Source: a virus
IMG/VR virus record: IMGVR_UViG_3300042451_001241
Coordinates: 1-64,000 of that record
Reading direction: 5' to 3' (one strand)
DNA length: 64,000 nt
A program made the translations under genes and the position numbers. Under the pieces are notes generated by a model. The model made no database searches, had not been told where the DNA came from, and saw nothing but the letters and a program-made list of their open reading frames with translations. Positions 44,190 through 63,947 of this stretch are shown piece after piece. The stretch's first letter is position 1, and every line of letters begins with the position of its first letter.

Positions 44190-44576
44190 ATGAAAACGTC
44201 AGTTAAAATAACGGAAAAACAATTACAAAAATTGGTAAATGAAGTTAATAACCCAAATTTAAATGAAGATTTATTTGGGGGTGTTAAAGATATTTATCAA
44301 GGTGTTAAGGGATTTACTAGAGGTGAAGGTTATTCTTATTTTAAACATCTTAGTAACCTACAAAGATTATTATCGAAATTAAAAAAATTAGATGAACCTA
44401 ACCATAAAATAATGTTAGATTTAAACACTTTAAAAAATAATATTTCGGCTTCTAAAATGTCGGCACAAAAAAAATTCGACTTAATAAATCATATTGATGA
44501 TGCTATCAATTACTTCGATTATTATACTCAAGAAATAAATAAAATAGAAACATTGTCAAAACAAACATTAAATTAA
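44190..44576 (+). CDS. Small helical protein with capsid-targeting-like N-terminus (1)
   Basis: A 128-residue helical Lys-rich protein beginning MKTSVKITEKQLQKLVNEVNNPNLNEDLF. The start is the same type of short basic amphipathic helix as the next two genes, and LNE before D (residues 24-26) fits the (I/L)xE cleavage rule of T4-type prohead proteases. The remainder (YFKHLSNLQRLLSKLKKLDEPN, INHIDDAINYFDYYTQEINKIETL) is all-helical. Candidate internal (core or ejected) head protein. No enzymatic motif. Confidence 0.6.
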   Translation: MKTSVKITEKQLQKLVNEVNNPNLNEDLFGGVKDIYQGVKGFTRGEGYSYFKHLSNLQRLLSKLKKLDEPNHKIMLDLNTLKNNISASKMSAQKKFDLINHIDDAINYFDYYTQEINKIETLSKQTLN

Positions 44577-44577
44577 T

Positions 44578-44880
44578 ATGAAAAAAATTGTTAAACTTAC
44601 TGAATCAGATTTAGAACAAATCGTAAAAAGAGTAATCAAAGAAAGTGAAGATGAAACTCCTTATGAGAAAGGACCTAGAGGTATTAGATCGTCAAGATCA
44701 AGAGCGGATTATGAATCAACACCAAAAGAAGATGAAATTGCGACTTTATTTGGAAAGTATTCTGACGATGTTCCTCCTATTGTTATTAGATATTTAAGGA
44801 AGTTAGGTAGAAAAACTTTAACCAAACGTTTATTGGATTTAAATATGTTGGATAAAACTATGTTAAAAGACGAAGAATAA
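44578..44880 (+). CDS. Small protein with capsid-targeting-like N-terminus (2)
   Basis: A 100-residue protein beginning MKKIVKLTESDLEQIVKRVIKESEDE. The helix LTESDLxxIVKRVIKE is followed by an (I)KE-S cleavage-like site at residues 20-23. The processed remainder is charged with a basic C-terminal helical segment (VIRYLRKLGRKTLTKRLLDLNM) that could contact DNA or membrane. One-base overlap with the next gene, which has a related N-terminus. Candidate packaged internal protein. Confidence 0.6.
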   Translation: MKKIVKLTESDLEQIVKRVIKESEDETPYEKGPRGIRSSRSRADYESTPKEDEIATLFGKYSDDVPPIVIRYLRKLGRKTLTKRLLDLNMLDKTMLKDEE

Positions 44881-45359
44881 TGAGAGTCATTAAACTAAAA
44901 GAATCGGACTTAACTAAGATAGTTCAAAGAGTTCTAAATGAGACTCACGATGATGATTCATCTCGATATATGTTCTTTTCAAATTTAGAACAAATGAAAA
45001 GACAATGTGAATTGTTATTAAATTTGGATAAAAATGAAGTTACTGAGTTATTGGAAAATGGTCACGATTGGGCTCAAGATCACATAGCAGAATCCAAAAA
45101 TAACCTTGACCAAGTTTTTGACTTCATTATGAATGAAACAAAACGTTATCATAAAATGGAAGATGAGGTTATGGTTCCTTCTGAACCCGAAATGATGGAA
45201 GAAGGTAAAAAGAAAAAAAATGTACCAACAAACCCGAAATTATGGTCTCAATGCTTATCTTGGGCTAAATCAAGATACAAAGTATGTCCAAGTGCTTATT
45301 GTAATGGTGCCGCCGCAAAAAGATATAAAGAAAAGGGTGGTAAATGGAAGAAAAAATAA
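44880..45359 (+). CDS. Small protein with capsid-targeting-like N-terminus (3)
   Basis: A 159-residue protein beginning MRVIKLKESDLTKIVQRVLNETHDD, with the same helix and an LNE-T site at residues 19-22. A helical middle is followed by NPKLWSQCLSWAKSRYKVCPSAYCNGAAAKRYKEKGGKW, a compact motif (P-x-LW...AK...S-A...A-x-x-YKxxGGxW) that recurs in phage and giant-virus proteins of unknown function. The C-terminus is strongly basic. Likely packaged with DNA; function unknown. Confidence 0.6.
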   Translation: MRVIKLKESDLTKIVQRVLNETHDDDSSRYMFFSNLEQMKRQCELLLNLDKNEVTELLENGHDWAQDHIAESKNNLDQVFDFIMNETKRYHKMEDEVMVPSEPEMMEEGKKKKNVPTNPKLWSQCLSWAKSRYKVCPSAYCNGAAAKRYKEKGGKWKKK

Positions 45360-45371
45360 TTTAATTTTTTT

Positions 45372-45401
45372 TTGTAGTTTCTAAAAAAAGTTGTATCTTT
45401 G
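45372..45401 (+). promoter_or_regulatory. Host-type (Bacteroidota) promoter TTG-N19-TATCTTTG
   Basis: A TTTG at 45371-45374 is followed after 19 bases by TATCTTTG (45394-45401), fitting the Bacteroidota -33/-7 consensus TTTG/TAnnTTTG. The ATG is four bases further on, giving a very short leader. Confidence 0.7.
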
Positions 45402-45405
45402 TATT

Positions 45406-45819
45406 ATGAAACACAAAATAAAGAGGTTCTTCCAAAAAGTAGGGATTACCTTCATAAAAAAAACAACCCCCAAAGAAGAGTATGTTAAATCAGAGTATGA
45501 GTATGAATGTATCGGCATTTGTAAGAACCTGATTAACAAGGAATCCACAAAATTACTAATTTCCCCAATCTCAGGAAAAAGGTATATTAAGAGTTATGAT
45601 GACCAAATCTTTATTATTATGGATAAAAGAGTCATCACCATCGTAAATCACAATTATAGTTATACAATCGAACTAACACCTAAAACAAGTGATAGGTTAT
45701 ACAATTCATTTGATAATGAGGTAGAAACTCGTAGAAAGAAAATGGAAGACGAAATCAGGTCTAACGTAAAACATTCATTAAGTAACATTTTTAAAAACAT
45801 CACAAATGAACAAATTTGA
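45406..45819 (+). CDS. Accessory protein of unknown function under host-type promoter
   Basis: The frame is open from a TTG at 45391, but this lies inside the promoter, so the ATG at 45406 is used (137 residues, MKHKIKRFFQKVGITF). The N-terminus is basic; the middle has YECIGICKNLINKESTKLLISPISG and ISGKRYIKSYDDQIFIIMDKR, predicted beta-rich. No family recognised. Codon use looks slightly less AT-extreme than in the structural neighbours. It overlaps the following membrane-protein gene by 14 bases. Expected to be expressed early by host RNA polymerase. Confidence 0.6.
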   Translation: MKHKIKRFFQKVGITFIKKTTPKEEYVKSEYEYECIGICKNLINKESTKLLISPISGKRYIKSYDDQIFIIMDKRVITIVNHNYSYTIELTPKTSDRLYNSFDNEVETRRKKMEDEIRSNVKHSLSNIFKNITNEQI

Positions 45820-46069
45820 TAAGATATTCTTAACAGGATTAACATTAATTGGTACACCTATTTTGCTTATAATTTTAATGTCGACACTCAGTATAATAGG
45901 TCCTAAAAAAGATAAAGATTACACCAGTGTTGATAAAAAAGTGGTATATGATACCGTTAAAGTTAAAAAAATTTTTTATGACACAATTCGTGTTAATGAA
46001 AAAAAACCAAAAAAAACTGAAGTAAAAGAAGAAGTTAGAGTAGAGGAAACAAAGAAAGATAGTTTATAA
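45806..46069 (+). CDS. Small single-pass membrane protein
   Basis: An 87-residue protein with one N-terminal transmembrane helix (residues ~8-30, IFLTGLTLIGTPILLIILMSTLSII) and a charged outer/periplasmic tail containing DKKVVYDTVKVKKIFYDTIRVNEKK. It has no lipobox. The tail is Lys/Glu-rich. It may be an inner-membrane modifier, superinfection-exclusion protein or spanin-like piece; nothing specific supports one choice. Confidence 0.55.
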   Translation: MNKFDKIFLTGLTLIGTPILLIILMSTLSIIGPKKDKDYTSVDKKVVYDTVKVKKIFYDTIRVNEKKPKKTEVKEEVRVEETKKDSL

Positions 46070-46849
46070 TTATTTCTTTCTAGGTTTGTAACTTACCATT
46101 TTAGGTTTGTTTCCTGTACCTGGTTTAGGGTTTGATTTTTCAGCCCTTCTTTTTTGATTACACGCCGCTCTCTTTTGAGAATCTGACATTTTACCTGCCA
46201 CACCAGCTGCCCTACATTTAGGATACGATTTATCAGTTGCTTCAGGTCTACCACAAGGTGGATGTTTACCATCAACCTTTTTACATATATTAACCCAAGG
46301 ACCTTTAGGTTGTGAACTACCTTTAGGTTTCTTTTTAGTACCAAACCAAACGGCTAAATCTTCTTTTATGGTATGAACAGGGTGGGTATCAATATCATAA
46401 GTACCATCTTTACCTTTTTCCCACATTCCCACTTCTCTTTCTATATTATTCTTAGTGGTACTCTTAACCTTCTTATGATTGTGTTCTGTATCAACAAACT
46501 CATAAAAAGGTCCTAATTCACTTTTAGACCACTTTTTTATACCTAACTCTATAGGACCACTATATTCACCGGCAGACACGGAAGAATCCGATTCTAAAAT
46601 ATTTTTAACTATTCTATCAATATCGGTTTCAGATAATCTTTTATTTTTTGTTTTTGTTAAATCACCATCCAAACTATCCCAATATTTTTCGGCGTTATCT
46701 ATTTCAGATAATTCTTCGGTAAAAGGTTTTAATTCATTTTTTTTAAATTTTCTTAAACCAGGTTGTAATGGAAGTACATACGATCCTCTCGCACCTGTAC
46801 TATCAGATGTCGCTTCTCTCAATATTTGTTTTATTAAATCTCTTAACAT
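46070..46849 (-). CDS. Packaged-type protein with internal duplication and Cys-rich basic tail
   Basis: A 259-residue protein with an N-terminal helix LIKQILREATSDS containing an LRE-A site. A second similar helix lies inside (LSETDIDRIVKNILESDSS, about residues 71-89). Each is followed by a related segment (GSYVLPLQPGLRKFKKNELKPF and GEYSGPIELGIKKWSKSELGPF), so the N-terminal half is an internal duplication. The C-terminal ~80 residues (WVNICKK, PPCGRPEATDKSYPKCRAAG, KPKMVSYKPRKK) are Cys-containing and strongly basic, like a phage domain I associate with DUF5872. Possibly DNA-associated. Confidence 0.6.
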   Translation of the reverse strand: MLRDLIKQILREATSDSTGARGSYVLPLQPGLRKFKKNELKPFTEELSEIDNAEKYWDSLDGDLTKTKNKRLSETDIDRIVKNILESDSSVSAGEYSGPIELGIKKWSKSELGPFYEFVDTEHNHKKVKSTTKNNIEREVGMWEKGKDGTYDIDTHPVHTIKEDLAVWFGTKKKPKGSSQPKGPWVNICKKVDGKHPPCGRPEATDKSYPKCRAAGVAGKMSDSQKRAACNQKRRAEKSNPKPGTGNKPKMVSYKPRKK

Positions 46850-46871
46850 TTAAATAAAAAGTTCTTATTAT

Positions 46872-46879
46872 TATAAATA
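46872..46879 (-). promoter_or_regulatory. Putative late promoter element (TATTTATA)
   Basis: An exact minus-strand TATTTATA 22 bases before the 46070-46849 start. On the other strand it reads TATAAATA 16 bases upstream of the 46896 gene, so its orientation is ambiguous. Confidence 0.45.
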
Positions 46880-46895
46880 TAACAAACTATATAAA

Positions 46896-47120
46896 ATGGA
46901 AGAAGAAAAAGTCTACGGAAAGTTATTTAATTCAATACCCTTATTAAGTGAAGACCATTTTGAAACATTATATGAGAATATGAATGAAGAGTTTTCAAAA
47001 TACATACTCATACAAGCGGTAAAACATGCCTATCATTCAGGAGCATTTTCAATTGGAGAAACAGAAATTATTTCTAAATCTATAAGGGTTTTATCCAAAA
47101 CAAAAGAAGATAACCAATAA
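46896..47120 (+). CDS. Small protein of unknown function
   Basis: A 74-residue acidic helical protein (MEEEKVYGKLFNSIPLLSEDHFETLYENMNEEF). No recognised domain, signal peptide or membrane segment. It is followed directly by a hairpin terminator, indicating a short independent transcript. Confidence 0.5.
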   Translation: MEEEKVYGKLFNSIPLLSEDHFETLYENMNEEFSKYILIQAVKHAYHSGAFSIGETEIISKSIRVLSKTKEDNQ

Positions 47121-47133
47121 GATTATCTTCTTT
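47103..47133 (+). terminator. Probable bidirectional terminator between convergent genes
   Basis: AAAGAAGATAA and TTATCTTCTTT pair across a nine-base loop that contains the stop of the 46896 gene. The flanks are A- and T-rich, so it may also serve the convergent 47156-48184 gene. Confidence 0.6.
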
Positions 47134-47155
47134 AAATTTATATTTTTATATTAAT

Positions 47156-48184
47156 TTAAGAAATTCTATCAATTTCTTTAGGTGCCATAGTTTCAGGTTT
47201 TACGTTTGATAAAATTGACCAAGTTTTTTTACCTACAATACCATCTGATTTAAGTCCATTTTTACTTTGGAATGATTTAACGGCGTCATACGTTGCTTTA
47301 TCAAAAGTCCCTGTTGGAGTAACAGATTCATCGGCAGAAATTAAATTATTTTGAACTTGTTTAACTAAACTATTAGAATCATTCAATGTCAAATAACCTT
47401 TACCTTGTAATAAATCTTCACTTGTTTCTGGAACAACTCTTTGTTTTGGAGTTACATCGGGGTTTGCCGCTGTTTTACCGTCCAATGAAATTTGTTTACC
47501 ATTACATTTGAAAGTTCCTTTTGTCCCTTTTACGGTATTTTTATACTCACCATTCACATAATATGCGATATCACCAATTTGATAATAAAATCCGCCATTA
47601 CCTGATGTGTATTTTGTTTCTTTACCACCCATCACACAAGGATATTTTGTGCTAAAAATGTAATTAAAATTTTTAGTAACTTCTTCAGGCGTTTTTTTAG
47701 TTTGATCAGGATTCGCAACTCCACTTGTATTAGTTGGTAGATTTTTGAAAACGTAGTCGTCATACCCCAATCTATCTGTATTAATTCCTATTTTTTTTAG
47801 GCGAGGTTCTAATACTTTATACGTATCATATTGGTCGTAATCATAATCCATCGCATCTGCAATTACACTATCCAAACCAGTATATTTAGACCCCATCATT
47901 TTAAAAACATTCTTTAATTCGTTATTAATTTTAACAAATGTATTTTTGTCTTTTATTTTAAGAATTTCCTTAACTAATTTAGTCTCATCAATATCAGATA
48001 CATTGTGAACAAGATTAAAAATACTTTGGGTGATCGGATCTTCAGAATCAAATTTAATATTTCTTCCACTATATTGGTCGCCAGTTATTTTGGCTTCACC
48101 TAAATATTGTTTTTTAGTCGCATTTTCGTGAAGACCTAAAATTCTTTTTCTCTCATCTTCGTTTATTATAAATAAATTTTTCAT
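47156..48184 (-). CDS. Peptidoglycan-binding-domain protein with capsid-targeting-like N-terminus
   Basis: A 342-residue protein. The start MKNLFIINEDERKRILGLHENATKKQYLGE contains the helix and an LHE-N site, resembling packaged-protein leaders. The C-terminus (residues ~272-327: SLVKQVQNNLISADESVTPTGTFDKATYDAVKSFQSKNGLKSDGIVGKKTW) is a PG_binding_1 fold, which binds peptidoglycan stems. The middle has CVMGGKETKYTSGNGGFYYQIG with no obvious hydrolase motif. A packaged cell-wall-binding protein could help genome ejection or anchor an ejection complex. Confidence 0.68.
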   Translation of the reverse strand: MKNLFIINEDERKRILGLHENATKKQYLGEAKITGDQYSGRNIKFDSEDPITQSIFNLVHNVSDIDETKLVKEILKIKDKNTFVKINNELKNVFKMMGSKYTGLDSVIADAMDYDYDQYDTYKVLEPRLKKIGINTDRLGYDDYVFKNLPTNTSGVANPDQTKKTPEEVTKNFNYIFSTKYPCVMGGKETKYTSGNGGFYYQIGDIAYYVNGEYKNTVKGTKGTFKCNGKQISLDGKTAANPDVTPKQRVVPETSEDLLQGKGYLTLNDSNSLVKQVQNNLISADESVTPTGTFDKATYDAVKSFQSKNGLKSDGIVGKKTWSILSNVKPETMAPKEIDRIS

Positions 48185-48201
48185 ATTAAAATAGTTTTAT
48201 A

Positions 48202-48209
48202 TATAAATA
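48202..48209 (-). promoter_or_regulatory. Putative late promoter element, minus half of a perfect inverted pair
   Basis: Minus-strand TATTTATA preceded by GA, 17 bases before the 48184 start. With 48213-48222 it forms a 10-base perfect inverted repeat around a single C. Confidence 0.65.
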
Positions 48210-48214
48210 TCCGA

Positions 48215-48222
48215 TATTTATA
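48215..48222 (+). promoter_or_regulatory. Putative late promoter element, plus half of a perfect inverted pair
   Basis: Plus-strand TATTTATA preceded by GA, five bases before the ATG at 48228. The pair drives two divergent genes and fixes the reading direction of the motif as TATTTATA. Confidence 0.65.
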
Positions 48223-48227
48223 AAAAA

Positions 48228-48581
48228 ATGACAGAAAAAGAAAGATACGAAAAGACATTAAACATCATTTTAAAAAAACAATATCCGTTTTTTGAAAATA
48301 TATATGTTACAAGATATAGAGAAGATTTTTCTCATCTTCAGGTGGATGTTACAATAACCCTTGGCGATGATTTTATATCAAAACATATTGACAGAACTTG
48401 TTACGACCAAATGGATGATTTTCATTTGTCAAACTACTCATTTGAACATTGTTCTGATGTTAAATTTAATCACAAAGAATTTGAATTTGAATTAAAAAAT
48501 TATCTTATTATGACAAATACAAATCTTAATATGGGAAAAAATACTTATATTAACATTCAAATTTATTTTATTGAAGATTAG
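48228..48581 (+). CDS. Small protein of unknown function
   Basis: A 117-residue protein (MTEKERYEKTLNIILKKQYPFF) with a helical N-terminus and beta-rich rest (HLQVDVTITLGDDFISKHIDRTCYDQMDD). No recognised family, signal peptide or membrane segment. It lies just before the noncoding RNA. Confidence 0.55.
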   Translation: MTEKERYEKTLNIILKKQYPFFENIYVTRYREDFSHLQVDVTITLGDDFISKHIDRTCYDQMDDFHLSNYSFEHCSDVKFNHKEFEFELKNYLIMTNTNLNMGKNTYINIQIYFIED

Positions 48582-48601
48582 GAATAATCAAAAAAAGTTT
48601 G

Positions 48602-48609
48602 TATATTTG
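48602..48609 (+). promoter_or_regulatory. Host-type promoter -7 element (TATATTTG) for the ncRNA
   Basis: TATATTTG matches the Bacteroidota -7 consensus TAnnTTTG. No clear TTTG -33 element is found at the usual distance. Transcription would start about 5-8 bases downstream, at the left end of the structured RNA. Confidence 0.6.
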
Positions 48610-48613
48610 TATA

Positions 48614-48805
48614 ATGAAAAAGGGTTGAACCGAGATTACCCTAACAACTCGGCGGAATGAGTGACGATCAACTCAAGGTGTGGTAAACCTCAATCGTTAA
48701 GATGGAATAATTTGAAGGTACCTTTGTTCATTACGCGGATAACCGATTAGATCACAAGCTCAGACAAAAATTTCAAAACCAAAGGGGACGATTGTCCCCT
48801 TTTTT
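48614..48805 (+). ncRNA. Structured noncoding RNA with two predicted pseudoknots
   Basis: A ~190-base intergenic segment between a host-type -7 element and a strong terminator, with no convincing ORF. First H-type pseudoknot: AGGGT (48621-48625) pairs ACCCT (48638-48642), and CCGAG (48630-48634) pairs CTCGG (48648-48652). Second pseudoknot: TGAGT (48658-48662) pairs ACTCA (48671-48675), and GACGAT (48663-48668) pairs ATCGTT (48693-48698, one G-U), with a nested hairpin AGGT/ACCT (48676-48690). Further 3' are a palindrome AAGGTACCTT (48715-48724) and a CGG-ATAA-CCG hairpin (48736-48745). It does not match tmRNA, RNase P or 6S features that I know. Function unknown; a regulatory or host-decoy RNA is possible. 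Confidence 0.72.
48781..48805 (+). terminator. Rho-independent terminator of the ncRNA
   Basis: GGGGAC and GTCCCC pair around a GATT loop, extended by AAA/TTT pairs, and run into a T tract. It is the most GC-rich hairpin in the region. Confidence 0.9.
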
Positions 48806-49226
48806 ATTTCTCAATGATTACTTGACCTTCAAATGTTTTTAATTTGTGAATATTACTTTCCCTCCAAACGGTTAAAACGACCAATTTCCAATTAGTCCCT
48901 GCGTTATGAATTGGTTTAAGAGGAATTGCCAAACCTTTTGATGAACTTCTAATAACAAAAGGTTCTTCATTTTTAATTTCCCCTGTTAATATTTTTTCCG
49001 CAATATCTCTTTTAAAAAGGTCGATGAAGTATCTGATTTCCATATTGGTTACAGGTCTCATATCGTAGTCCTCAATTTTTTCCCTACCAATACCCATAGA
49101 CCTTTGTTCTGCATGACCCATATGTTTGATTAAATCGAAGGACATAGTTACTTCAAGAGTATCTACCAACTGACCTATTCTTTTTTCTAATAATAAATGT
49201 TCTCTAATTAATTGTTTGAGTTTCAT
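48804..49226 (-). CDS. DUF4258-like protein with capsid-targeting-like N-terminus
   Basis: A 140-residue protein. The N-terminus MKLKQLIREHLLLEKRIG is a short helix with an LLE-K site. The body has MGHAEQRSMGIGREKI, FVIRSSSKGLAIPL and WKLVVLTVWRE, an order (H-A-x-x-R-x-x-x-x-G-I then a VV-x-T strand pair) reminiscent of DUF4258, a RelE/BECR-related family. If so it could be an RNase-like or toxin-like packaged protein. The assignment is weak and rests on motif order only. Confidence 0.45.
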   Translation of the reverse strand: MKLKQLIREHLLLEKRIGQLVDTLEVTMSFDLIKHMGHAEQRSMGIGREKIEDYDMRPVTNMEIRYFIDLFKRDIAEKILTGEIKNEEPFVIRSSSKGLAIPLKPIHNAGTNWKLVVLTVWRESNIHKLKTFEGQVIIEK

Positions 49227-49231
49227 ATAGT

Positions 49232-49239
49232 TATAAATA
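49232..49239 (-). promoter_or_regulatory. Putative late promoter element (TATTTATA)
   Basis: An exact minus-strand TATTTATA five bases before the 48804-49226 start. Confidence 0.55.
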
Positions 49240-49282
49240 TGTTTTTTTTAGTAAAAAAATAGGTCAGTTTAAATAAAATCAC

Positions 49283-49290
49283 TATATTTG
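49283..49290 (+). promoter_or_regulatory. Host-type promoter -7 element (TATATTTG)
   Basis: TATATTTG ends four bases before the ATG at 49295, the same layout as at 45394-45401 and 52100-52107. Confidence 0.65.
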
Positions 49291-49294
49291 TATT

Positions 49295-49840
49295 ATGAAA
49301 AAGTTAATCATAACCATAACATTTTTATTAACATTTATTAATTCGTATTCACAAGAATATGGTGAAATTGTTAAAGATTCGTCAGTTAAAATGAGAATTA
49401 TTGGTCTTAATAAATTTGATTCATTAACATTACAAAAAACAAAAGATTTATTAACAGAATATTTTGGATTTGAAACCACAATATCGAATGACACATTTAA
49501 TGTTGAAAACTTATTTTTTAACGCTGAGAATGTTATAAATTTAGATAAATTTGAACAAACCGTATATAATAGTATTCCGACTCTATACATAACAAACTAT
49601 CCAATGATTGACGGAAACTATGAAAGTCAGGCATTAGGTGCTACAATTAAAAATTTCTTATCAATTATGATTGATGGTTCTCATCCTTGGGAAGATTTAA
49701 AAATTGGTATTATTCACGAAGTTGGTCATTTATATGGGTTGAGTCATTGCGAAAACGAGTATTGTATTATGAACAAAAAATCTGTAAACAATAAGAATTT
49801 AAAATTCTGTAATAAATGTGTTATGACAATATATAAATAG
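49295..49840 (+). CDS. Secreted archaemetzincin-like metalloprotease
   Basis: A 181-residue protein with an N-terminal signal peptide (MKKLIITITFLLTFINSYSQ, cleavage near residue 20). The metzincin zinc motif HEVGHLYGLSH (H141, E142, H145, H151) is followed by C152-x4-C157, M159 (Met-turn) and C172-x2-C175, the signature of archaemetzincins (M54), where the four Cys bind a second zinc. The spacing from the Met to the CxxC is about 12 residues instead of the usual ~17. Secretion is unusual for this family. It is under a host-type promoter and is probably active in the periplasm or outside. Confidence 0.85.
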   Translation: MKKLIITITFLLTFINSYSQEYGEIVKDSSVKMRIIGLNKFDSLTLQKTKDLLTEYFGFETTISNDTFNVENLFFNAENVINLDKFEQTVYNSIPTLYITNYPMIDGNYESQALGATIKNFLSIMIDGSHPWEDLKIGIIHEVGHLYGLSHCENEYCIMNKKSVNNKNLKFCNKCVMTIYK

Positions 49841-49844
49841 AGTA

Positions 49845-49852
49845 TATTTATT
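49845..49852 (+). promoter_or_regulatory. Putative late promoter element (TATTTATT)
   Basis: Plus-strand TATTTATT four bases before the ATG at 49857, just after the archaemetzincin stop. This separates a late gene from the host-type-promoted protease. Confidence 0.5.
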
Positions 49853-49856
49853 ACAT

Positions 49857-50969
49857 ATGAATATTATTAATGAATTAAACAGAATGAAATACCTTTTCAA
49901 TTATGAAAAGGGTAAGGTTATTTCCGAACAAAAAACAACAACCGTAACGAAACAGGGGGTTGAAGGGGGTACAAAAACAACAGAAACAACAACCCAATCC
50001 ATATCAATACCTTATTCTCAAGATGTTGTTTATTCGACAGGTTCAAATACATTAACACCGGAATCTTATAAATCATTTACTGAAGGAATTTTAACATCAA
50101 TAAATTCTAACCCTGAATCAAAAAAAATGTTAGAAGATAAAAATATAAAATTAACCAACATATCGGTTATGGGTTCGGCCAGTAATAGTTGGGGAAATAA
50201 GGCGACAGGGTATGATTTAGAAAATGATAGAACCACAAAAAATCCAAAAACACCAAATGATAATGGTTACAGAAATAATTTAAATTTGGCAAAACAAAGA
50301 GCTGACATATTTTTACCACAATTAACAACTTATTTAAAGAGTATTGGAGTTTCTGTCGATGATTCAGTCCCAAAGGTAACCTCATCTGTAGTTATCAATA
50401 CGAGTGGATTTACTGACAATTCCCCAAATAGACCGGCAAATTTAAGGCCAGGTCAATTTATATCGGTTAATTTAACTTTTAATTACATAAAAACTGATGT
50501 TAAGGAAACATTTGAACCTAGATTTGACCCAAAATATATTGTTCAAGGTAGTTATTTTTGTAATTCAAAAAATGGCGCTGGACAACTTTCGTCAAATGTA
50601 ACCCCATTAAGATGTAAAGACGGTACCGGTAAATTCCAAACACCCGATAAAAACTATGGGAATTATATCGCGATTTACGAAATAAAATATAACGATATAC
50701 TATCAACCGATTTGGCAAAAAAGAAAAAACAATTTTCGACTGAAGTATATCCCGCGATTAGATGGAATTTTTATTGGGAGGGTGGTAAAATAGGTAGAAT
50801 TTCGTTAGAGATTAATAATAAGGAAACTAATAAAAACCTTGAAAAAAATCCGGCCGGACTGGAACAACTTAAAACCTATATGAATCTTCCAAAATATTCT
50901 CCCGACACAGGAAGCTATTCAAAAGGAAATAATTCATTTGAACTATTGGTTTCAAATTATTTGAAATGA
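49857..50969 (+). CDS. OmpA-like protein with capsid-targeting-like N-terminus
   Basis: A 370-residue protein. The N-terminus MNIINELNRMKYLFNYEKGKVISEQKT is a helix with an ISE-Q site. A Thr-rich linker follows, then residues ~58-210 (VVYSTGSNTLTPESYKSFTEGIL, ISVMGSASN, YRNNLNLAKQRADIFLPQLTTYL) resembling the OmpA C-terminal fold, with the usual N-x-x-L-A-x-x-R-A helix, which binds peptidoglycan. The C-terminal ~150 residues (YFCNSKNGAGQLSSNVTPLRCKDG, YPAIRWNFYWEGGKIGRISL) are beta-rich with two Cys. A packaged peptidoglycan-associated protein is inferred. Confidence 0.58.
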   Translation: MNIINELNRMKYLFNYEKGKVISEQKTTTVTKQGVEGGTKTTETTTQSISIPYSQDVVYSTGSNTLTPESYKSFTEGILTSINSNPESKKMLEDKNIKLTNISVMGSASNSWGNKATGYDLENDRTTKNPKTPNDNGYRNNLNLAKQRADIFLPQLTTYLKSIGVSVDDSVPKVTSSVVINTSGFTDNSPNRPANLRPGQFISVNLTFNYIKTDVKETFEPRFDPKYIVQGSYFCNSKNGAGQLSSNVTPLRCKDGTGKFQTPDKNYGNYIAIYEIKYNDILSTDLAKKKKQFSTEVYPAIRWNFYWEGGKIGRISLEINNKETNKNLEKNPAGLEQLKTYMNLPKYSPDTGSYSKGNNSFELLVSNYLK

Positions 50970-50970
50970 T

Positions 50971-51522
50971 TTAATGTATAGTAAAAACACTAATATCTAT
51001 AAAATCAAAGGTGACGTAATACCCTTCTTTACCTTTTTTTATAAATGATGAACATAATCCATTATAAAGGGGGGTGTGTAATATTTCCTTATGTTTTTGT
51101 GAATTTATCCATCCATTTAAAAAATACTCAACCATTTCATCATAATTATTAAATGTTTTACTCGTAAAGGCGGAAATTTCAGCATATGTGATAAAGTCAT
51201 CCTCGGGATATTCTCTCTTCAAATTAAATGTCTTATAATAATATATAAATAATGACTCACCAATTTTCCTACCATCATAAAAATTAACATTAGGGTGGTA
51301 ACATAACGATTTACTAACCATTTTATTGACATTAACTTTTGAAATTAATTCTTCAGAATCCTTGGAATAAATTAACGTATCAATATTATTTTTTTTACGA
51401 TACTCATTAATTTTTTTATATAACTTTTCATTGAATACCTCGACCTTAAAATTACTAATTTGCCCTAACAAAGTAATTGAATTTAAACAAATTAAACCGA
51501 TTATTAAAATTAATTTTTTCAT
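50971..51522 (-). CDS. Secreted CAP-superfamily protein (copy 1)
   Basis: A 183-residue protein with a signal peptide (MKKLILIIGLICLNSITLLGQ). The mature part matches CAP/SCP-PR1 features: KINEYRKKNNIDTLIYSKDSEELISKVNVNKMV, an early His (CYHPNVNF), AEISAFTSKTF, NGWINSQKHKEILHTPLYNGLCSSF and a final GYYVTFDF strand. Its paralogue at 51538-52095 lies just upstream in the same direction. Bacterial CAP proteins are secreted lipid- or protein-binding factors of poorly known role. No clear promoter of its own. Confidence 0.75.
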   Translation of the reverse strand: MKKLILIIGLICLNSITLLGQISNFKVEVFNEKLYKKINEYRKKNNIDTLIYSKDSEELISKVNVNKMVSKSLCYHPNVNFYDGRKIGESLFIYYYKTFNLKREYPEDDFITYAEISAFTSKTFNNYDEMVEYFLNGWINSQKHKEILHTPLYNGLCSSFIKKGKEGYYVTFDFIDISVFTIH

Positions 51523-51537
51523 ATCATTTAAAATGAT

Positions 51538-52095
51538 TTAATTATTGGTAATAACGGTCATACCCATAAAATTAAACGATGCGTAATAACCTTCTTTACC
51601 TTTCTTAACATATGTCGAACAAATACCTGAGTGAGACAATTTAAAGTTGGTGTTTAAAATTTCTTTATGTTTTGGTGAGTTTATCCATCCATTTAAAAAA
51701 TACTCAGCCATTTCATCATAATTATTAAATGTTTTACTTGTGAAAGCCGAGATTTCGGCGTACCAAACAGAATCAAATTCTGGATATTCCCTCTTCAAAT
51801 TCAATTTTTTATAATACTCAATAAACAATGATTCACCAATTTTTCTACCATCATAAAAATTAACATCAGGATGATAACATAATGATTTTTCAACCATTTT
51901 ATTAACATTAATTTTGGAAACCAATTCTTCAGAAACATTAGAATAAATTAATGTATCGATATTGTTCTTTTTCCTATAATCGTTAATTTTTTGGTATAAT
52001 TTTTTGTTAAAAATGTGAACATTAAAGTTTTTTTCAGTAAATGTCTGTGAATTAAGTGTTAAACTAATTAACAATAAAATTATCAATATTCTCAT
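51538..52095 (-). CDS. Secreted CAP-superfamily protein (copy 2)
   Basis: The frame is open to 52110, but those bases are the TATATTTG promoter, so the ATG at 52095 is used (185 residues, MRILIILLLISLTLNSQ signal peptide). The body is clearly paralogous to copy 1: KINDYRKKNNIDTLIYSNVSEELVSKINVNKMV, YHPDVNFYDGRKIGESLF, AEISAFTSKTFNNYDEM, NGWINSPKHKEIL and GYYASFNFMGM. The WINSPKH segment is the CAP signature W-x-x-S-x-x-H. It has a host-type promoter and so is probably expressed with or before the metalloprotease. Confidence 0.78.
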   Translation of the reverse strand: MRILIILLLISLTLNSQTFTEKNFNVHIFNKKLYQKINDYRKKNNIDTLIYSNVSEELVSKINVNKMVEKSLCYHPDVNFYDGRKIGESLFIEYYKKLNLKREYPEFDSVWYAEISAFTSKTFNNYDEMAEYFLNGWINSPKHKEILNTNFKLSHSGICSTYVKKGKEGYYASFNFMGMTVITNN

Positions 52096-52099
52096 AATA

Positions 52100-52107
52100 C
52101 AAATATA
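52100..52107 (-). promoter_or_regulatory. Host-type promoter -7 element (TATATTTG)
   Basis: Minus-strand TATATTTG ending four bases before the ATG at 52095, drawing both CAP genes into one transcript. Confidence 0.65.
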
Positions 52108-52143
52108 CAAAAATAATTTGATTTTAAAAAAATAAATTATTAA

Positions 52144-53835
52144 CTACTTGATAATCAGTTTATATTTAAATAAACCGCAATCCCATATTTTTTCATAACC
52201 CAATTCTTTAGTTAACTCATTTTCAGATTTTGTGAAATCTAAGTCAGGATGTCTCTTCTTTAAATTATTTTTACCGAATGAAAATTTATGAAATCTTTTA
52301 TATCTTGATACGGAAGAATTATAATAGTAGTATGATGGTTTTAAAATTGAATTTAACTCAAATCCTAAACTAATATATAAATTTTTATTTCCATCTATAG
52401 TCCATCTTCTATCGGCAAAACTAATAATACTATTAGGTTTATATTCGTTAATAAAATATTTTAAGAATTTAGATGCCATTCCTGAAACAACATATCCCGA
52501 CTTAACAGAAAATCTACTTAATTCATATTCATCATCGTTATTTTTTGTCATATTTCTTTTAGAGTTAAATGTCATAACCCCAATTAAGATATCTTTATAA
52601 AAAGCCCCATAAAATATATTTGATTTATCATTACCTTGAATATGGTTGATTTTTAAAAAAATAGATTTTTGTTCCTTATTTATTTTAATAATTTTAGTTT
52701 CTCTTGCACCAATTTTAATCCCATTATTAAAACCTAAAATATGTTTTAGTTTTTCTTTAACCAAATCTTTATTAGTCATCCATTCATCCTCAAAAACTTG
52801 GATTAGTTTATACCCATTAATATTACTTTCTAAGGTTTTATTTAAATGATATGATGAGTTTTTACCCATTTTTTCGGTGTGAAAATACAATCCGTTATAT
52901 TCAATACCTATTTTCTTTTCAGGGATTAATATATCAATTTCTTTACCCTCAAGTAATTTTCTATTTTTACCTTTTTCAGTTTTTAAACCTAAATTTTCTA
53001 TAAATTCTTTAATCTCATTTTCACCTTTAGATGTCCAAGTAGGGCTTTGATTTAGATTAATCTCTTTAATGTTTTTAGTATAAATTTCTGAAACTCTATC
53101 ACATACAATTTTTGAATTTGGGTATTTTAATTTATATTCTTCTACCGAAATATTATGTTTATTCATTAAATGAGTATTAGTGATTGTTTTCATTTTTTCA
53201 CCACATATTTCACATTTAATAAAATTTTTTTTAGATATAAATTCTATTTCTTTTTTTTCTTTTTCTAAATAAGACTTATGTAGTTTTTTTTCATCCTTAA
53301 ACTTATCTAAATAATCTGAAATTTTAATATTATGAAAATTTAAAATGTGTCGCTCAAAACACCCGGTTTTATTTTCTAAATCAGTTGTCGACCATTCACA
53401 TAGACCACATTTTCTTTTTTTTTCTTTTTCCCTTTTAACGATATCAAAAAATTCCTCAAACCATTTTTTACCATTTTTATTTTCATATTTTTTTCTTTGG
53501 TAATTATTTTTAGGAATGTTAATATCCCCATATAAACTTATAATATGTTTAGTTAATTTACCTGATAGGTTATTGGGGTCGTTTATAATTTCTCCCGTTT
53601 TTTTACATACAGCAATTAAGTCATATTCGCTCGAATCATACCTAATCGTTTTTCCAATTTCAATCTCCTTACTATTACCTATTTTAACTTGCCCACCTTT
53701 TTTTCTTATGACAATATTATTTTCTTTTAAAATTTGGCTTATTTTTTTGTGACCCATTTTAAACATTTCACCCAATTTATGAGTGGAATAGTTATTTGTT
53801 GTATATAATGTAATAATTTTATTAATATCATTCAT
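52144..53835 (-). CDS. Large homing endonuclease (Vsr-like nuclease plus zinc fingers)
   Basis: A 563-residue protein. An N-terminal HTH (NYSTHKLGEMFKMGHKKISQILKENNI) is followed by two Cys/His zinc-finger-like segments (CGLCEWSTTDLENKTGCFERHILNFH and CEICGEKMKTITNTHLMNKH). The Vsr-like nuclease core is EGKEIDILIPEKKIGIEYNGLYFHTEK near residue 300. The C-terminal ~180 residues (YGAFYKDILIGVMTFNSKR, ELSRFSVKSGYVVSGMASKFLKYF) match a domain typical of phage-encoded homing enzymes. It sits beside the major capsid gene and has its own late-type motif. A mobile, intron-less endonuclease. Confidence 0.8.
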   Translation of the reverse strand: MNDINKIITLYTTNNYSTHKLGEMFKMGHKKISQILKENNIVIRKKGGQVKIGNSKEIEIGKTIRYDSSEYDLIAVCKKTGEIINDPNNLSGKLTKHIISLYGDINIPKNNYQRKKYENKNGKKWFEEFFDIVKREKEKKRKCGLCEWSTTDLENKTGCFERHILNFHNIKISDYLDKFKDEKKLHKSYLEKEKKEIEFISKKNFIKCEICGEKMKTITNTHLMNKHNISVEEYKLKYPNSKIVCDRVSEIYTKNIKEINLNQSPTWTSKGENEIKEFIENLGLKTEKGKNRKLLEGKEIDILIPEKKIGIEYNGLYFHTEKMGKNSSYHLNKTLESNINGYKLIQVFEDEWMTNKDLVKEKLKHILGFNNGIKIGARETKIIKINKEQKSIFLKINHIQGNDKSNIFYGAFYKDILIGVMTFNSKRNMTKNNDDEYELSRFSVKSGYVVSGMASKFLKYFINEYKPNSIISFADRRWTIDGNKNLYISLGFELNSILKPSYYYYNSSVSRYKRFHKFSFGKNNLKKRHPDLDFTKSENELTKELGYEKIWDCGLFKYKLIIK

Positions 53836-53940: not shown

Positions 53941-55740
53941 TTATCTCAATTCTCTTAAATCAAACGTACGAACACCATCAACGGTTATTTTCGCGTAGAA
54001 ACGATTGTTAACCATCTTTTTCGCGTATCTTGTCATAATACCTTTAATTGGTGTAAAATTAAACGGATTATACATTGTAGGTGTTAATTGAAGTGGAACG
54101 TACGGTGCGTAGATGTAACCAGTATCAAGTAACGATGTTCCTTTATGACCCAACAAAATTGTGTTTGGTGGGAAGTAAGGGTCACGATACACTTGGTAAC
54201 GACCTGCTAAAGTACCTACTCTTTCAATACCCATATTATACTGATCTTGCTCAGGAGATGCGTTAGATACGTGGAAGTATTCTAAATCATCGAAGATTGC
54301 AGAAATCTCACTTGATACAACGATCCAGTTAGCACCACCACGAAGAGTTGACTTGTGGATTTGAGCTGACAATTGGTTAATTGCAGTAATCAAAGTTTGA
54401 TTCCAATCTTTCTGAGTATAAGAAGTTGATAATCCTGTAACTCTTCTCCATCCGTTGTAATCCCAACGTAATGACCAAGCTGCACCTTTACGTAAATCAC
54501 GTAAAATTTCACGGTCGATTTCAGCCGCAACTTGTTCAGATAATAATGCCGTTAATTCGGCTTCAGCGTCGATGTTGTGGAATGCCGCAACGTCTTGTGC
54601 TAATTCAGGAGACCATTGTGCTCTTAATTTTCTTTCAGTAACAGAAACGGTAACTGAATCTAAATCAAAAGAAACTTCACCAATTTTATCTTCAAATTCT
54701 AATTCACGGTATCTTTTAAATACTGCAACGAATGAAGTAGTTGTTGCCGCAGAAACTATAGTTGTTCCTGTGTAACCATCTAATGTATCGGCACCACAAC
54801 CAACACAAGCCGGACAAGATAAGTCAACTTCTAAATAAATGTAACCTTCAGCGTCACAAATATCTTTAAATGAACCACCATTTCCTTCTGCCCAGTTAAC
54901 AGTTGTAGTTTTACCGTACTGAACAATTCCTTTACCGTATTGTTGTGTAACAACTCTAAATAATAATGGAGTGTTATCTGCAACTTCACAAGCAGAATCT
55001 TCATCAACACTTAAACCAGCGCCTTTAGTGATAACTAAATCAGATAAGAAAGTTTCAGTATCGATTTCATTACCATCAGGTCCGATTAATTTACCAGCTC
55101 CTGAATTTGAGAAACCTGACATTTTGATGATAACTTTTCTTACTGTTTCACTATCTAATTCAGTAGTTTCGTCAATTAATTCTGAACCTGACCATACTTG
55201 AACTCTTGTTGATGCTGTAACCGCTGTGAATTGACCTTTAGAATAATCAAATAACCCTGCCGGATTCAATCCTGGTTCAGAACCTTCATAGAATAAATCG
55301 TAAAGATTTTTATTTCCGTAAGTACTACCAGCACCGTAACCATCACCAACGTTAGCTCCATTAGGTGCTCCTACTGGTGCAAAGTGTTCATTACCGGTAT
55401 TATAACCTTGAATTTTAGGTACAAAGTAGAATAATTTACCGATAGGTAAGTTCATAGCTTGTACTGATACGATGTCGTTCGCTAATAATTTAGAGAAAAC
55501 ACGTCTTACGATTGGAAACACAACTGTTTCAAACGCTCCGTTTGAACCTTCTGATGTCGCCTCATTAATTAGGAAAGATGCTTGGTTCTCATATAATTGA
55601 GCCACGTTCTCTTTTAAATGTCCTTTAAGACCTTCTAGGAATCCTAATTTATCCCATTTGTTAATTGTATCTTCTTTAATAACTTTAAGGTGTTTTAACC
55701 CGATGTTACCAACAAGACCTGATTCTAATAATGCTCCCAT
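53941..55740 (-). CDS. gp23-like major capsid protein
   Basis: A 599-residue protein forming the head lattice. It belongs to the T4 gp23 (HK97-fold) family by the N-terminal pattern (NKWDKLGFLEGLKGHLKENVAQLYENQASFLINEATSEG), VFPIVRRVFSKLLANDIVSVQAMNLPIGKLFYFVPK, and the C-terminal YAPYVPLQLTPTMYNPFNFTPIKGIMTRYAKK and RFYAKITVDGV. LINE-A at residues 57-61 is the expected prohead-protease site, equivalent to T4 E65. A Cys-rich insertion (CPACVGCGADTLDGYTGTT) near residue 310 is unusual. Last gene before the terminator. Confidence 0.95.
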   Translation of the reverse strand: MGALLESGLVGNIGLKHLKVIKEDTINKWDKLGFLEGLKGHLKENVAQLYENQASFLINEATSEGSNGAFETVVFPIVRRVFSKLLANDIVSVQAMNLPIGKLFYFVPKIQGYNTGNEHFAPVGAPNGANVGDGYGAGSTYGNKNLYDLFYEGSEPGLNPAGLFDYSKGQFTAVTASTRVQVWSGSELIDETTELDSETVRKVIIKMSGFSNSGAGKLIGPDGNEIDTETFLSDLVITKGAGLSVDEDSACEVADNTPLLFRVVTQQYGKGIVQYGKTTTVNWAEGNGGSFKDICDAEGYIYLEVDLSCPACVGCGADTLDGYTGTTIVSAATTTSFVAVFKRYRELEFEDKIGEVSFDLDSVTVSVTERKLRAQWSPELAQDVAAFHNIDAEAELTALLSEQVAAEIDREILRDLRKGAAWSLRWDYNGWRRVTGLSTSYTQKDWNQTLITAINQLSAQIHKSTLRGGANWIVVSSEISAIFDDLEYFHVSNASPEQDQYNMGIERVGTLAGRYQVYRDPYFPPNTILLGHKGTSLLDTGYIYAPYVPLQLTPTMYNPFNFTPIKGIMTRYAKKMVNNRFYAKITVDGVRTFDLRELR

Positions 55741-58558: not shown

Positions 58559-59314
58559 TTAAAATATTTCTCTAATCCTATTATTAGAGAAATTGACTTG
58601 TTGTTCACTAATCTCACTTCCAATAAAACCTCTATCTATTTTTTTACAAGCAACCCCAGTAGTCCCCGTTCCCATAAAAGGATCGTAAACCAAATCGTTT
58701 TCATCTGAATATACATTTAATAACTTTTCACATAATTCAGTTGAAAATGTTGCTTTATTTAAATCATTACTACCATCGTTATTTTTGGCGGAAATAAAAT
58801 TATCAACTATCTCATAATATTTTTGACCCTTTTCAGAGACTTTTACAACTTTTTTAAAACAATCAAAAGTTTTAATTTCATTTTTTCTTACAAAAACAAA
58901 AACAAATTCTATAATTCTATTTAATCTATTGTAAGAAGCTGGATGGGGAATCGAATTTGATTTTTTCCATATAATTGTGTCTGCTATTGTAAAATTTGTT
59001 TCACTATTAATCTTTGAAACCAACAAATACGGTAATACAGGATTTTCTATTGAATATGAAAAATTATAAAGTATTACTTTATTTTTTTTTAAAACCCTAT
59101 CTATATTTTTAAATATATTAACTGACCAATTTAAATATTCTTCATCGGTTTTCCAATCAGAATATGTGTCATATCTTTTTTGTTTATCCGCATATCCTCC
59201 TTTTCTTTTTGTCATATTATATGGGGGAGATGTTAATACAACATCAATAAATTCGTTTGGCATTTTTGACATTGTTAATAAACAATCTTCATTATAAAAT
59301 TTGTTTATTTCCAT
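58559..59314 (-). CDS. DNA methyltransferase (N4-cytosine or N6-adenine)
   Basis: A 251-residue enzyme. Motif IV TSPPYN at residues 28-33 and motif I DPFMGTGTTGVAC at 211-223 are in the beta-class order (catalytic motif first), as in many N4-mC and N6-mA enzymes. The catalytic SPPY form favours N4-cytosine but does not exclude adenine. It overlaps by ten bases the HNH-like gene at 59305-59883, forming an apparent restriction-modification pair. It could also protect phage DNA against host restriction. Confidence 0.85.
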   Translation of the reverse strand: MEINKFYNEDCLLTMSKMPNEFIDVVLTSPPYNMTKRKGGYADKQKRYDTYSDWKTDEEYLNWSVNIFKNIDRVLKKNKVILYNFSYSIENPVLPYLLVSKINSETNFTIADTIIWKKSNSIPHPASYNRLNRIIEFVFVFVRKNEIKTFDCFKKVVKVSEKGQKYYEIVDNFISAKNNDGSNDLNKATFSTELCEKLLNVYSDENDLVYDPFMGTGTTGVACKKIDRGFIGSEISEQQVNFSNNRIREIF

Positions 59315-59883
59315 TTTAATGATTCTTTAAATTTTTTACAATCATACCAATAACATCCTTCACACCCAATTTCCTTTTCATAGTTTTCATCCCCCACTAA
59401 AAAAGAAAAACTAAAACTTAGTTTTTTAGCGTCAAATCTTTTATTTGTTTCTTTACAAACTTTACATATTTGACGCTTAAATAAGTTCTCTCTTAACGTT
59501 AATGGTTGAAAATCATCAAGTATTTGAGTTTCAACATCAAGCACTGATGTTTTATCATATCTACCATTTTTATGGTCAGGGATTATATAGTCGTTTGAAG
59601 TTCCGGGTAAACCTGAATGACAAGATGATTGTGAACAAATTAATTTTCGTATTTTTTTTGAGATGGGTCTTGAATCGTTTTTTTTAAAACCAACTAATCT
59701 AACTTTCCAAATTTTATTTTCTTTTTTAGTCTCATATAGGTAATTAAAACTCCGTATCCAAGGACATCCATTGTTAAAGTCTAAAGATTTAAATTCGTCA
59801 ATGAATTCATTTTTACTTACCCATCTAGAAATACCAAAATCATCAGGTCGAGATAATTTTAGGAATAATTCTTTTTTAGTCAT
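59305..59883 (-). CDS. HNH-type endonuclease, probable restriction partner of the methyltransferase
   Basis: A 192-residue protein. C83-x4-C88 precedes a DYIIPDHKNGRYDK segment (H104 as the catalytic His of a beta-beta-alpha-metal fold), then DDFQPLTLRENLFKR with N133, then C140-x2-C143 and a second Cys cluster near 174-182 (CEGCYWYDC). This is the layout of zinc-stabilised HNH nucleases, including some type II restriction enzymes. The ten-base overlap with the methyltransferase gene supports a restriction-modification module. The recognition site cannot be predicted. A homing HNH enzyme is an alternative. Confidence 0.65.
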   Translation of the reverse strand: MTKKELFLKLSRPDDFGISRWVSKNEFIDEFKSLDFNNGCPWIRSFNYLYETKKENKIWKVRLVGFKKNDSRPISKKIRKLICSQSSCHSGLPGTSNDYIIPDHKNGRYDKTSVLDVETQILDDFQPLTLRENLFKRQICKVCKETNKRFDAKKLSFSFSFLVGDENYEKEIGCEGCYWYDCKKFKESLKWK

Positions 59884-62135: not shown

Positions 62136-63947
62136 TCAGTCTCTAAGTATATTTTTTAATTGTTCTTCCATTTCTCCTAAAGAATTTCTCGCTTTTGATA
62201 AATCAATAAAAGAATCGTCACCTATTAATGAATCACTCTCTAATAAAATATTTAAATTACTTTTAGATTTTGACTCCGGGGCTAATCCAGGTCCTCCTCC
62301 AGCTTCTGGTGGTGGCGGTGGAGCTCCTCCACCCATTTCTCCTCCTTCTTCAGGTGGCGGTGGAGGTGTTGCGGTAGAAGATGTTGATCCTGTAACTTGT
62401 TTATATAATTTATCGACATTATCGAATATACCTGTGTGAGTTATTATTGTTGCGGAATTTAATAACTCAGCACCAACAGCTCTCTCAATTCTTTGTTGTT
62501 GTAAATCAAGTTTAATTTCTTCATCCGAAAATCCTAAAATATGTTTCTTAGCCCAAGAGAACGATACCGGTGCAATACCTGATTGATCTGCGGTTACTGC
62601 GTCCTTATACGCTAATATTTTTTCTTTCCAAATTTCAACCGATAATAAATCGGCTTGTTTTGATGGATTTGTAAGTCCTAACATAAAATTAGATAACTCA
62701 TCTTCAAAACCTAGTAAAAATAAATGAATAATTGCAACTTTGTTTAATTCGGATATTATAGACTTTTGAATTCTATTTATTGTTCTAGCAAATCTAATGT
62801 CCATTAAAGATAAATTTTTACCATCACCAACAGGTTCTTCAAACCCTAAGAAGGCTTTAGGAACACGTAATGCGGTTAATAATTTCTTTTGAATGTATTC
62901 AATATCGGCAATTTCTCCTAAATTTTGAGCTCCCGGTAATGTTTCAATAGGGTTTGGACTGGTCGGGTCTCTAACAGGAATAAAATAATCTTGGTCAACC
63001 GCCATTTGATTGAACCTCATATCAACATTACCCGTATTTTTATCTACAACTTGGTCTCTTTTGAATTTATTCGCAACACGTTGTACATACGGCTCAACAT
63101 CTTTGTCGTCCATATTACCAACAAATACTTTAAATACACGTCTTTCAGGGGCTCTCGATGTTCTATAAATTAACATAGCATCTTCAGATAACAATAATTG
63201 TTTCCAGATACGTCTAGCCTTTTCCAGCATTGATGTTCCATATGGAAGTTTTCTATCATCACCTAATAATCTAAAATGAGCAATTTCCCAAGAATTAAAT
63301 TCCATATCTTTAGTTTTCCATTTAAATCTCAATCCTTTATTTTCTTGGGGTTCTTCCATTCTCGCGGACTTCGCAGGCATTCCTCTTTCTAAACGTTCAA
63401 TCTCAATATTTGGTAATTGCATACAACCAATTATTCCTTTTTCAGGGTCTAGTTTAAGATAAACAAAATTATCACCATACTTACAAGTGTTTCTAATCCA
63501 CATTGGTAAGTTGGTATTAAGATCTAAAACATTATTAAATAAGTCGGCTAATATGGATTTAATTCTTTTTGATTCAGAATATATCTGTAACATATAACCA
63601 TTTTGGTTAACGGTTGTAGATTCCTCAGCGTAAATATCTAAAGCTGCTGATATTTCCGGAGTATATTCCATACTTTCATAGTCGTAAAATGATGCTAATC
63701 TCGTTGGTTCGTAATAAACCGCTTGAGTGTATAAGTTACTCTCAATTTTTGCCCATTGATTTGATAGAAAGAAGGTTTGTTGAGCTTCTAACTTTTCTCT
63801 TTCGTATTCTTGCTTTGACGTTGTTTTAAGTAATTGTTCTTTGTCGAACTTATATACAGGGTAATCCTGATTTAACAAAGCATTAGGACCCATAGCCCTT
63901 TGTAATCTTTGCCAAACCGTTAAATTTTGATTATTGTTATTCTCCAT
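62136..63947 (-). CDS. gp20-like portal protein
   Basis: A 603-residue portal vertex protein through which DNA enters and leaves the head. Characteristic T4 gp20-type segments are YDYESMEYTPEISAALDIYAEEST, WIRNTCKYGDNFVYLKLD, FRLLGDDRKLPYGTSMLEKARRIWKQLLLSEDAMLIYRTSRAPERRVFKV, YFIPVRDPTSPNPIETLPGAQN and SLMDIRFARTINRIQKSIISELNK. The C-terminus adds a Pro/Gly-rich linker (ATPPPPPEEGGEMGGG) that is probably flexible. First gene of the head module in transcription order, with a late-type motif 14 bases upstream. Confidence 0.95.
   Translation of the reverse strand: MENNNNQNLTVWQRLQRAMGPNALLNQDYPVYKFDKEQLLKTTSKQEYEREKLEAQQTFFLSNQWAKIESNLYTQAVYYEPTRLASFYDYESMEYTPEISAALDIYAEESTTVNQNGYMLQIYSESKRIKSILADLFNNVLDLNTNLPMWIRNTCKYGDNFVYLKLDPEKGIIGCMQLPNIEIERLERGMPAKSARMEEPQENKGLRFKWKTKDMEFNSWEIAHFRLLGDDRKLPYGTSMLEKARRIWKQLLLSEDAMLIYRTSRAPERRVFKVFVGNMDDKDVEPYVQRVANKFKRDQVVDKNTGNVDMRFNQMAVDQDYFIPVRDPTSPNPIETLPGAQNLGEIADIEYIQKKLLTALRVPKAFLGFEEPVGDGKNLSLMDIRFARTINRIQKSIISELNKVAIIHLFLLGFEDELSNFMLGLTNPSKQADLLSVEIWKEKILAYKDAVTADQSGIAPVSFSWAKKHILGFSDEEIKLDLQQQRIERAVGAELLNSATIITHTGIFDNVDKLYKQVTGSTSSTATPPPPPEEGGEMGGGAPPPPPEAGGGPGLAPESKSKSNLNILLESDSLIGDDSFIDLSKARNSLGEMEEQLKNILRD

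Follow-up and report, generated by a model that had tools for sequence, protein, structure and literature searches.

The gene at positions 49295..49840 (+) of the window, the 64,000-nucleotide stretch of viral DNA that was analysed, encodes an M54 archaemetzincin in a loop-shortened variant. What is new, judging from sequence comparison, is a widespread virus branch of apparently exported M54 proteins, with a short loop that was found only in viruses. The rare feature of the window protein is thus this virus-only shortening of the specificity loop, not export.

An archaemetzincin with a shortened loop

The gene starts with ATG and encodes 181 amino acids. The motif read directly from its open reading frame is HEVGHLYGLSH-C-ENEY-C-I-M-(12 aa)-C-NK-C, or, in general form, HEVGHLYGLSHC-x4-C-I-M-x12-C-x2-C. 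The first-pass annotation of this DNA had recognized an archaemetzincin signature here, and the motif, Pfam, PDB sequence matches and the modelled fold all bore this out. The protein matched PF07998 (Peptidase_M54) with E=1.3e-10 and 42.1 bits against a curated cutoff of 24.4, and its nearest PDB sequences were the archaemetzincins 3lmc, 3zvs, 4axq and 2x7m (E 1.6e-5 to 2.8e-4). A matrixin (M10) identity was rejected, the PF00413 score of 20.0 bits being below the cutoff of 24. The same annotation had proposed a structure prediction. An AlphaFold2 model made with an alignment of 46 viral sequences was confident over nearly the full length (mean pLDDT 91.9, pTM 0.85), and a Foldseek comparison of this model, which contains no zinc, with the PDB returned AmzA structures as the top five matches (E 1e-9 to 1e-7, probability 1.0). 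All 46 aligned viral members matched PF07998, and 50 of 50 M54-bearing virus records tested exceeded its cutoff.

The catalytic zinc site, HEVGHLYGLSH (H141, E142, H145 and H151; aa 141-151), lies at 49715..49747 (+). It is followed at 49748..49819 (+) by the Cys4 site (C152, C157, C172 and C175), the Met-turn M159 and the shortened loop (aa 160-171); the C-x4-C and C-x2-C after the third histidine and the Met-turn, by which M54 proteins are recognized, are therefore all present. The zinc ligands and the glutamate were invariant in the 46 aligned viral members, and the zinc, Cys4 and Met-turn residues were unchanged across 27 diverse members of the short-loop clade, so that the zinc-site residues, whose loss would have spoken against the assignment, are intact. 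The window protein deviates from the published spacing CxMx17CxxC, having x12. Because the residues, the Pfam score and the modelled fold agree with M54 and the x17 spacing does not, we filed the protein as a loop-shortened, non-canonical variant of the family. This spacing varies among accepted M54 proteins: the residue numbers given for AfAmzA (PMC3427221) imply 16, despite the published x17.

The stretch from the Met-turn to the final CxxC is 12 residues long in the window protein, 3-5 fewer than the 15-17 of cellular M54 proteins. The annotation had put the shortening at about five residues; the shortening stood, and its size became 3-5 when set against 115 cellular sequences. These comprise the 90 genome-scan matches listed, all with a loop of 15-17 residues, and the best 25 matches in 395 Bacteroidia genomes searched with a profile of the short-loop proteins only, again 15-17 in 25 of 25. 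A loop of 10-13 residues was found in 29 of 48 viral clusters and in none of the 115 cellular sequences, showing that the short-loop form, as read from sequence, was confined to viruses in the samples searched. In a tree built with the loop columns removed, the loop class changed once, and 27-28 short-loop rows formed an all-virus group (SH-aLRT 83-90); all 29 lay on one side of a branch, but with a support of only 23. The equivalent stretch of AfAmzA bears F136 and N138 of the S1' wall and K146 of the specificity loop (PMC3427221), suggesting that the shortening should alter the choice of substrate.

AmzA (MEROPS M54; 2x7m, 3zvs, 4axq, 3lmc) shares with the window protein the His3/Glu site, the Met-turn, the Cys4 site and the metzincin fold, whereas the window protein has an export signal, a stretch of 12 rather than about 16 residues and about 16-20% identity. 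Taken together, these comparisons suggest that the window archaemetzincin is a one-domain, catalytically competent zinc endopeptidase. Certain purified archaemetzincins showed no protease activity, the natural substrates of the family are unknown, and CarG of Myxococcus has the same fold with the catalytic Glu replaced (PMC3427221). AMZ-tk of Thermococcus kodakarensis, also an M54 protein, is one for which protease activity was measured, and the purified protein inhibits bacterial growth when added (PMC4681839); it differs in being archaeal, in its reported canonical spacing and in having no link to a phage.

Viral relatives and a variable cargo segment

Relatives in phages and in Bacteroidota had been suggested as a check. 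A DNA pattern for HExGHxxGLxHC matched 110 IMG/VR contigs, 97 of them with the M54 signature or near it and 92 with complete genes, and grouping the viral M54 genes at 85% identity gave about 49 clusters. Of 50 M54-bearing virus records, 13 contained a T4-like head or portal gene; many of the remaining records are fragments or other phage types, and their viral status follows the IMG/VR call. About 97 IMG/VR contigs thus stand against no clear relative in GenBank phages: tblastn with four queries against 50,697 GenBank phage records found none, a permissive search gave chance-level matches only, and PHROGs held no family matching the window archaemetzincin. A search of one literature collection for archaemetzincins and phages found no relevant paper there, and one for periplasmic proteases of phages and for metalloproteases of Bacteroidetes phages found nothing on point. 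A matrixin-like protein of Maribacter phage Colly_1, a marine flavobacterial phage, has the metzincin fold (BFVD A0A8E4XY18, Foldseek E 1.2e-6); its identity to the window protein is 13% and its annotation is matrixin.

Among cells, M54 genes were found in archaea, several bacterial phyla and many Bacteroidota, at least 44 of 297 genomes exceeding the cutoff (contig scan and profile searches). The description of the family as normally cytoplasmic and from archaea and animals was therefore too narrow. Many chromosomal copies in Bacteroidota have a lipobox, and since these chromosomes commonly encode lipoprotein M54s, export alone is not new. Such lipoproteins (for example those of Flavobacterium, L130, L154 and L164) are likewise exported M54 proteins and form the nearest cellular group in the tree, but they have a lipobox, a loop of 15-17 residues and a housekeeping neighbourhood, whereas the window protein is not a lipoprotein and has a loop of 12. 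The genes around M54 in Flavobacterium chromosomes (ftsY-like, ribosomal proteins and similar) offered no hint of its function.

Between close pairs of the short-loop clade, dN/dS was 0.06-0.28, indicating purifying selection; values at high divergence were near saturation and were disregarded. The neighbourhood is also kept in this clade, with an HNH gene, M54, two small families, a DUF2828 (Ro60-like) gene and tRNAs. We observed the DUF2828/DUF7788 gene (Ro60-like with vWA) 3' of M54 in L005, L015, L026, L031, L041, L061 and others, and wherever tRNAs were looked for, a phage tRNA array followed it. One phage record of 106,819 bp (L007, L047) has both a short-loop and a long-loop M54 gene.

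The window comes from a 91,801-bp IMG/VR record and is probably part of a large T4-like phage of a Bacteroidota host. The host was taken from the sigma-A box described below, from the Flavobacterium phages among its nearest relatives by portal and from the Bacteroidota M54s nearest in the tree. That the archaemetzincin is phage-encoded, as first annotated, was upheld by a nearby T4-like major head protein (53941..55740, -; phrog_138, E 1.3e-67), portal protein (62136..63947, -; phrog_213, E 2.8e-65) and prohead protease (59893-60609), and by two related contigs. In the first, L002, the M54 gene is 99% identical, has the same two neighbours and lies 2 kb from the head protein. The second, L284, is 85-88% identical over several kb, and blastn showed that it joins window position 49243 to 52159, so that the segment 49244..52158 is missing. 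This variable cargo segment holds M54, a protein with a candidate capsid-targeting N-terminus (..GKVISE|Q; 49857..50969, +) 16 bp downstream of M54, which adjoins M54 in L002 and L025 too, and two CAP-like genes whose products have signal peptides. The first of these (50971..51522, -) matched Pfam CAP with E 0.001, just under the cutoff, and its paralogue (51538..52095, -) is preceded by a separate TATATTTG box, 12 nt from the ATG.

M54 thus occurs in the window phage but not at the corresponding site of a close relative, as for a moron or cargo gene, and the L002 neighbourhood together with the lack of M54 at this site in L284 points to variable phage cargo rather than a chimera. In L002 the M54 DNA and about 100 bp upstream of it are almost identical to those of the window, and the upstream gene is about 85% identical, suggesting recent recombination of the segment. 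The gene might instead have been taken up from a host by chance, or reflect a chimeric assembly, and serve no phage function at all, a reading that could be entertained because exported M54 lipoproteins exist in Bacteroidota chromosomes. But M54 recurs between the same neighbours in an independent contig, the virus-only clade shows conserved phage gene order and purifying selection, and the chromosomal copies sit among housekeeping genes and have long loops; we consider this explanation very improbable. A chimera as such was rejected on the strength of L002, the sister phage L284 and the conserved synteny. A host housekeeping homologue in the identical context, named beforehand as grounds for doubt, did not appear; cellular homologues differ in their neighbours and have the longer loop.

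Many ORFs of window 44190-51000 share related short N-termini (for example MKKIVKLTESDLEQIVKRVIKE, MLRDLIKQILRE and ..GKVISE|Q) that resemble the capsid-targeting sequences of T4, and by this analogy their proteins are likely to be internal or ejected virion proteins. Flanking genes of this kind and the prohead protease would suit an archaemetzincin that is packed in the particle and delivered at entry, opening a path through the periplasm. However, the M54 protein has a signal peptide and no capsid-targeting N-terminus, and export signals are retained across the clade, which makes a virion protein improbable.

Two further observations concern the region of the head gene. Different homing-endonuclease-like genes occupy the site beside it in the window (52144-53835, -) and in L002 (2759-3451, -), and a restriction-modification-like pair (a DNA methylase and an IceA protein; 58559-59883, -) lies between the head protein and the prohead protease.

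Predicted export and promoter

The first 19 residues, MKKLIITITFLLTFINSYS followed by Q (49295..49351, +), form a predicted signal peptide with an inferred cleavage site; basic n-, hydrophobic h- and polar c-regions were judged by eye and by hydropathy. By the same kind of reading, 47 of 49 viral clusters have a hydrophobic, export-type N-terminus that is cleavable, a lipobox or a membrane anchor, in agreement with the signal peptide first noticed. In the short-loop clade we counted about 18 members with a membrane anchor, 6 with a lipobox and 2-3, including the window protein, with a cleavable signal peptide. Although the type of anchor differs across the clade, the predicted side of the catalytic domain is constant. 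These data suggest that the window archaemetzincin is exported from the cytoplasm into the host envelope. The host envelope and neighbouring cells had both been proposed as targets. Many relatives look tethered to the inner membrane, which disfavours action on neighbouring cells, and the one compartment that every anchor type would share is the periplasm or envelope of the infected cell itself, which argues against a main role in neighbours; the envelope is therefore the favoured part of that proposal. Other secreted metzincins have two disulfides in place of the Cys4 zinc site (PMC3427221). By analogy, the Cys4 site of the exported protein may hold a structural zinc or form two disulfides in the oxidising periplasm.

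A sigma-A -7 box, TATATTTG, lies at 49283..49290 (+), 12 nt before the ATG, a position enriched before viral M54 genes. The host-type promoter first annotated thus held for its -7 box; a clear -33 element was looked for upstream of it and none was seen. Of 49 viral M54 genes, 14 had a TAnnTTTG box at precisely 12 nt upstream of the ATG and 15 had one at -11 to -13 (9 of 410 neighbouring genes); within 60 nt upstream the count was 32 of 49 (38 of 410). The P values are only indicative and are overstated, because the phages are related and not independent. In Flavobacterium psychrophilum the box spans -12 to -5 relative to the transcription start, and leaderless mRNAs make up only 5.5% (PMC9723704). 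With the box so placed, viral M54 mRNAs should start at or beside the ATG, and the window M54 mRNA is predicted to be almost leaderless. Expression of the window gene is probably early, judging from this promoter. The gap to the next gene is only 16 bp, leaving no room for a terminator directly after M54.

Possible roles in the infected cell

The reading that we lean towards, with a little more confidence than doubt, makes the protein an accessory zinc endopeptidase of the periplasm with the role of remodelling the infected host's envelope. As accessory cargo of a T4-like phage, the gene would be transcribed early or constitutively from the host-type sigma-A promoter, and the host Sec machinery would carry the protein to the periplasm, where a small number of host envelope proteins, perhaps a single one, would be its substrates. 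Since the shortened loop lacks some of the S1' wall and of the specificity loop, a different set of substrates would fit. The most likely benefit of such remodelling would be that superinfection is prevented or weakened, or that the envelope breaks down more readily late in infection. Superinfection exclusion and an aid to lysis are thus the two main candidate benefits, and the evidence favours neither.

For exclusion, the protease would cut an outer-membrane receptor or a periplasmic entry factor, so that later phages are kept out and progeny are not lost on debris. A host-type promoter should make the protein available from the onset of infection; like many exclusion genes, M54 is accessory and inserted at a variable site; and the predicted location is the envelope. 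Still, our literature search found no precedent with the archaemetzincin family, and members anchored in the inner membrane cannot easily contact an outer-membrane receptor, so we regard exclusion as a tentative possibility. In lysis, the protein would degrade proteins of the envelope or those linking the outer membrane late in infection, replacing or helping spanins. The periplasmic location suits this role, and the window gene lies among late genes close to the capsid module. However, its own promoter is host-type and not evidently late, tens of kb separate M54 from the head genes in most relatives, and the sister phage L284 has no M54 at this site. We regard an aid to lysis as a similarly tentative possibility, of slightly lower probability.

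A bolder form of the envelope-remodelling reading, which we put forward as speculation, is that the virus-specific exported clade with its remodelled S1' site is a widespread tool for the Bacteroidota envelope, cleaving a defined host protein and excluding competing phages. If this were true, the archaemetzincin family would gain its first natural substrate. A clade with an active site kept by purifying selection, an export signal and a shortened specificity loop would be a tractable system for finding substrates, and it points to envelope proteolysis as a recurrent strategy of Bacteroidota phages, so far unannotated given the 50,697 GenBank records without a clear match.

Upstream of the cargo segment, at 48612-48806 (+), we noticed what may be a new non-coding RNA of phages, which has a -7 box, an intrinsic terminator and a pseudoknot-like core (GGGTTGAACCGAGATTACCC..CAACTCGG). 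An Rfam search with it gave no significant match. A 20-mer of the candidate was present in 87 IMG/VR contigs, and in its alignment (A4; L002, L268-L346) 17 of 33 pairs showed covariation and 96% of cells were paired. Among the sampled loci, a sigma-factor-like gene often precedes the candidate, and the gene that faces it is often homologous to the one at 48804-49226, which encodes 140 aa.
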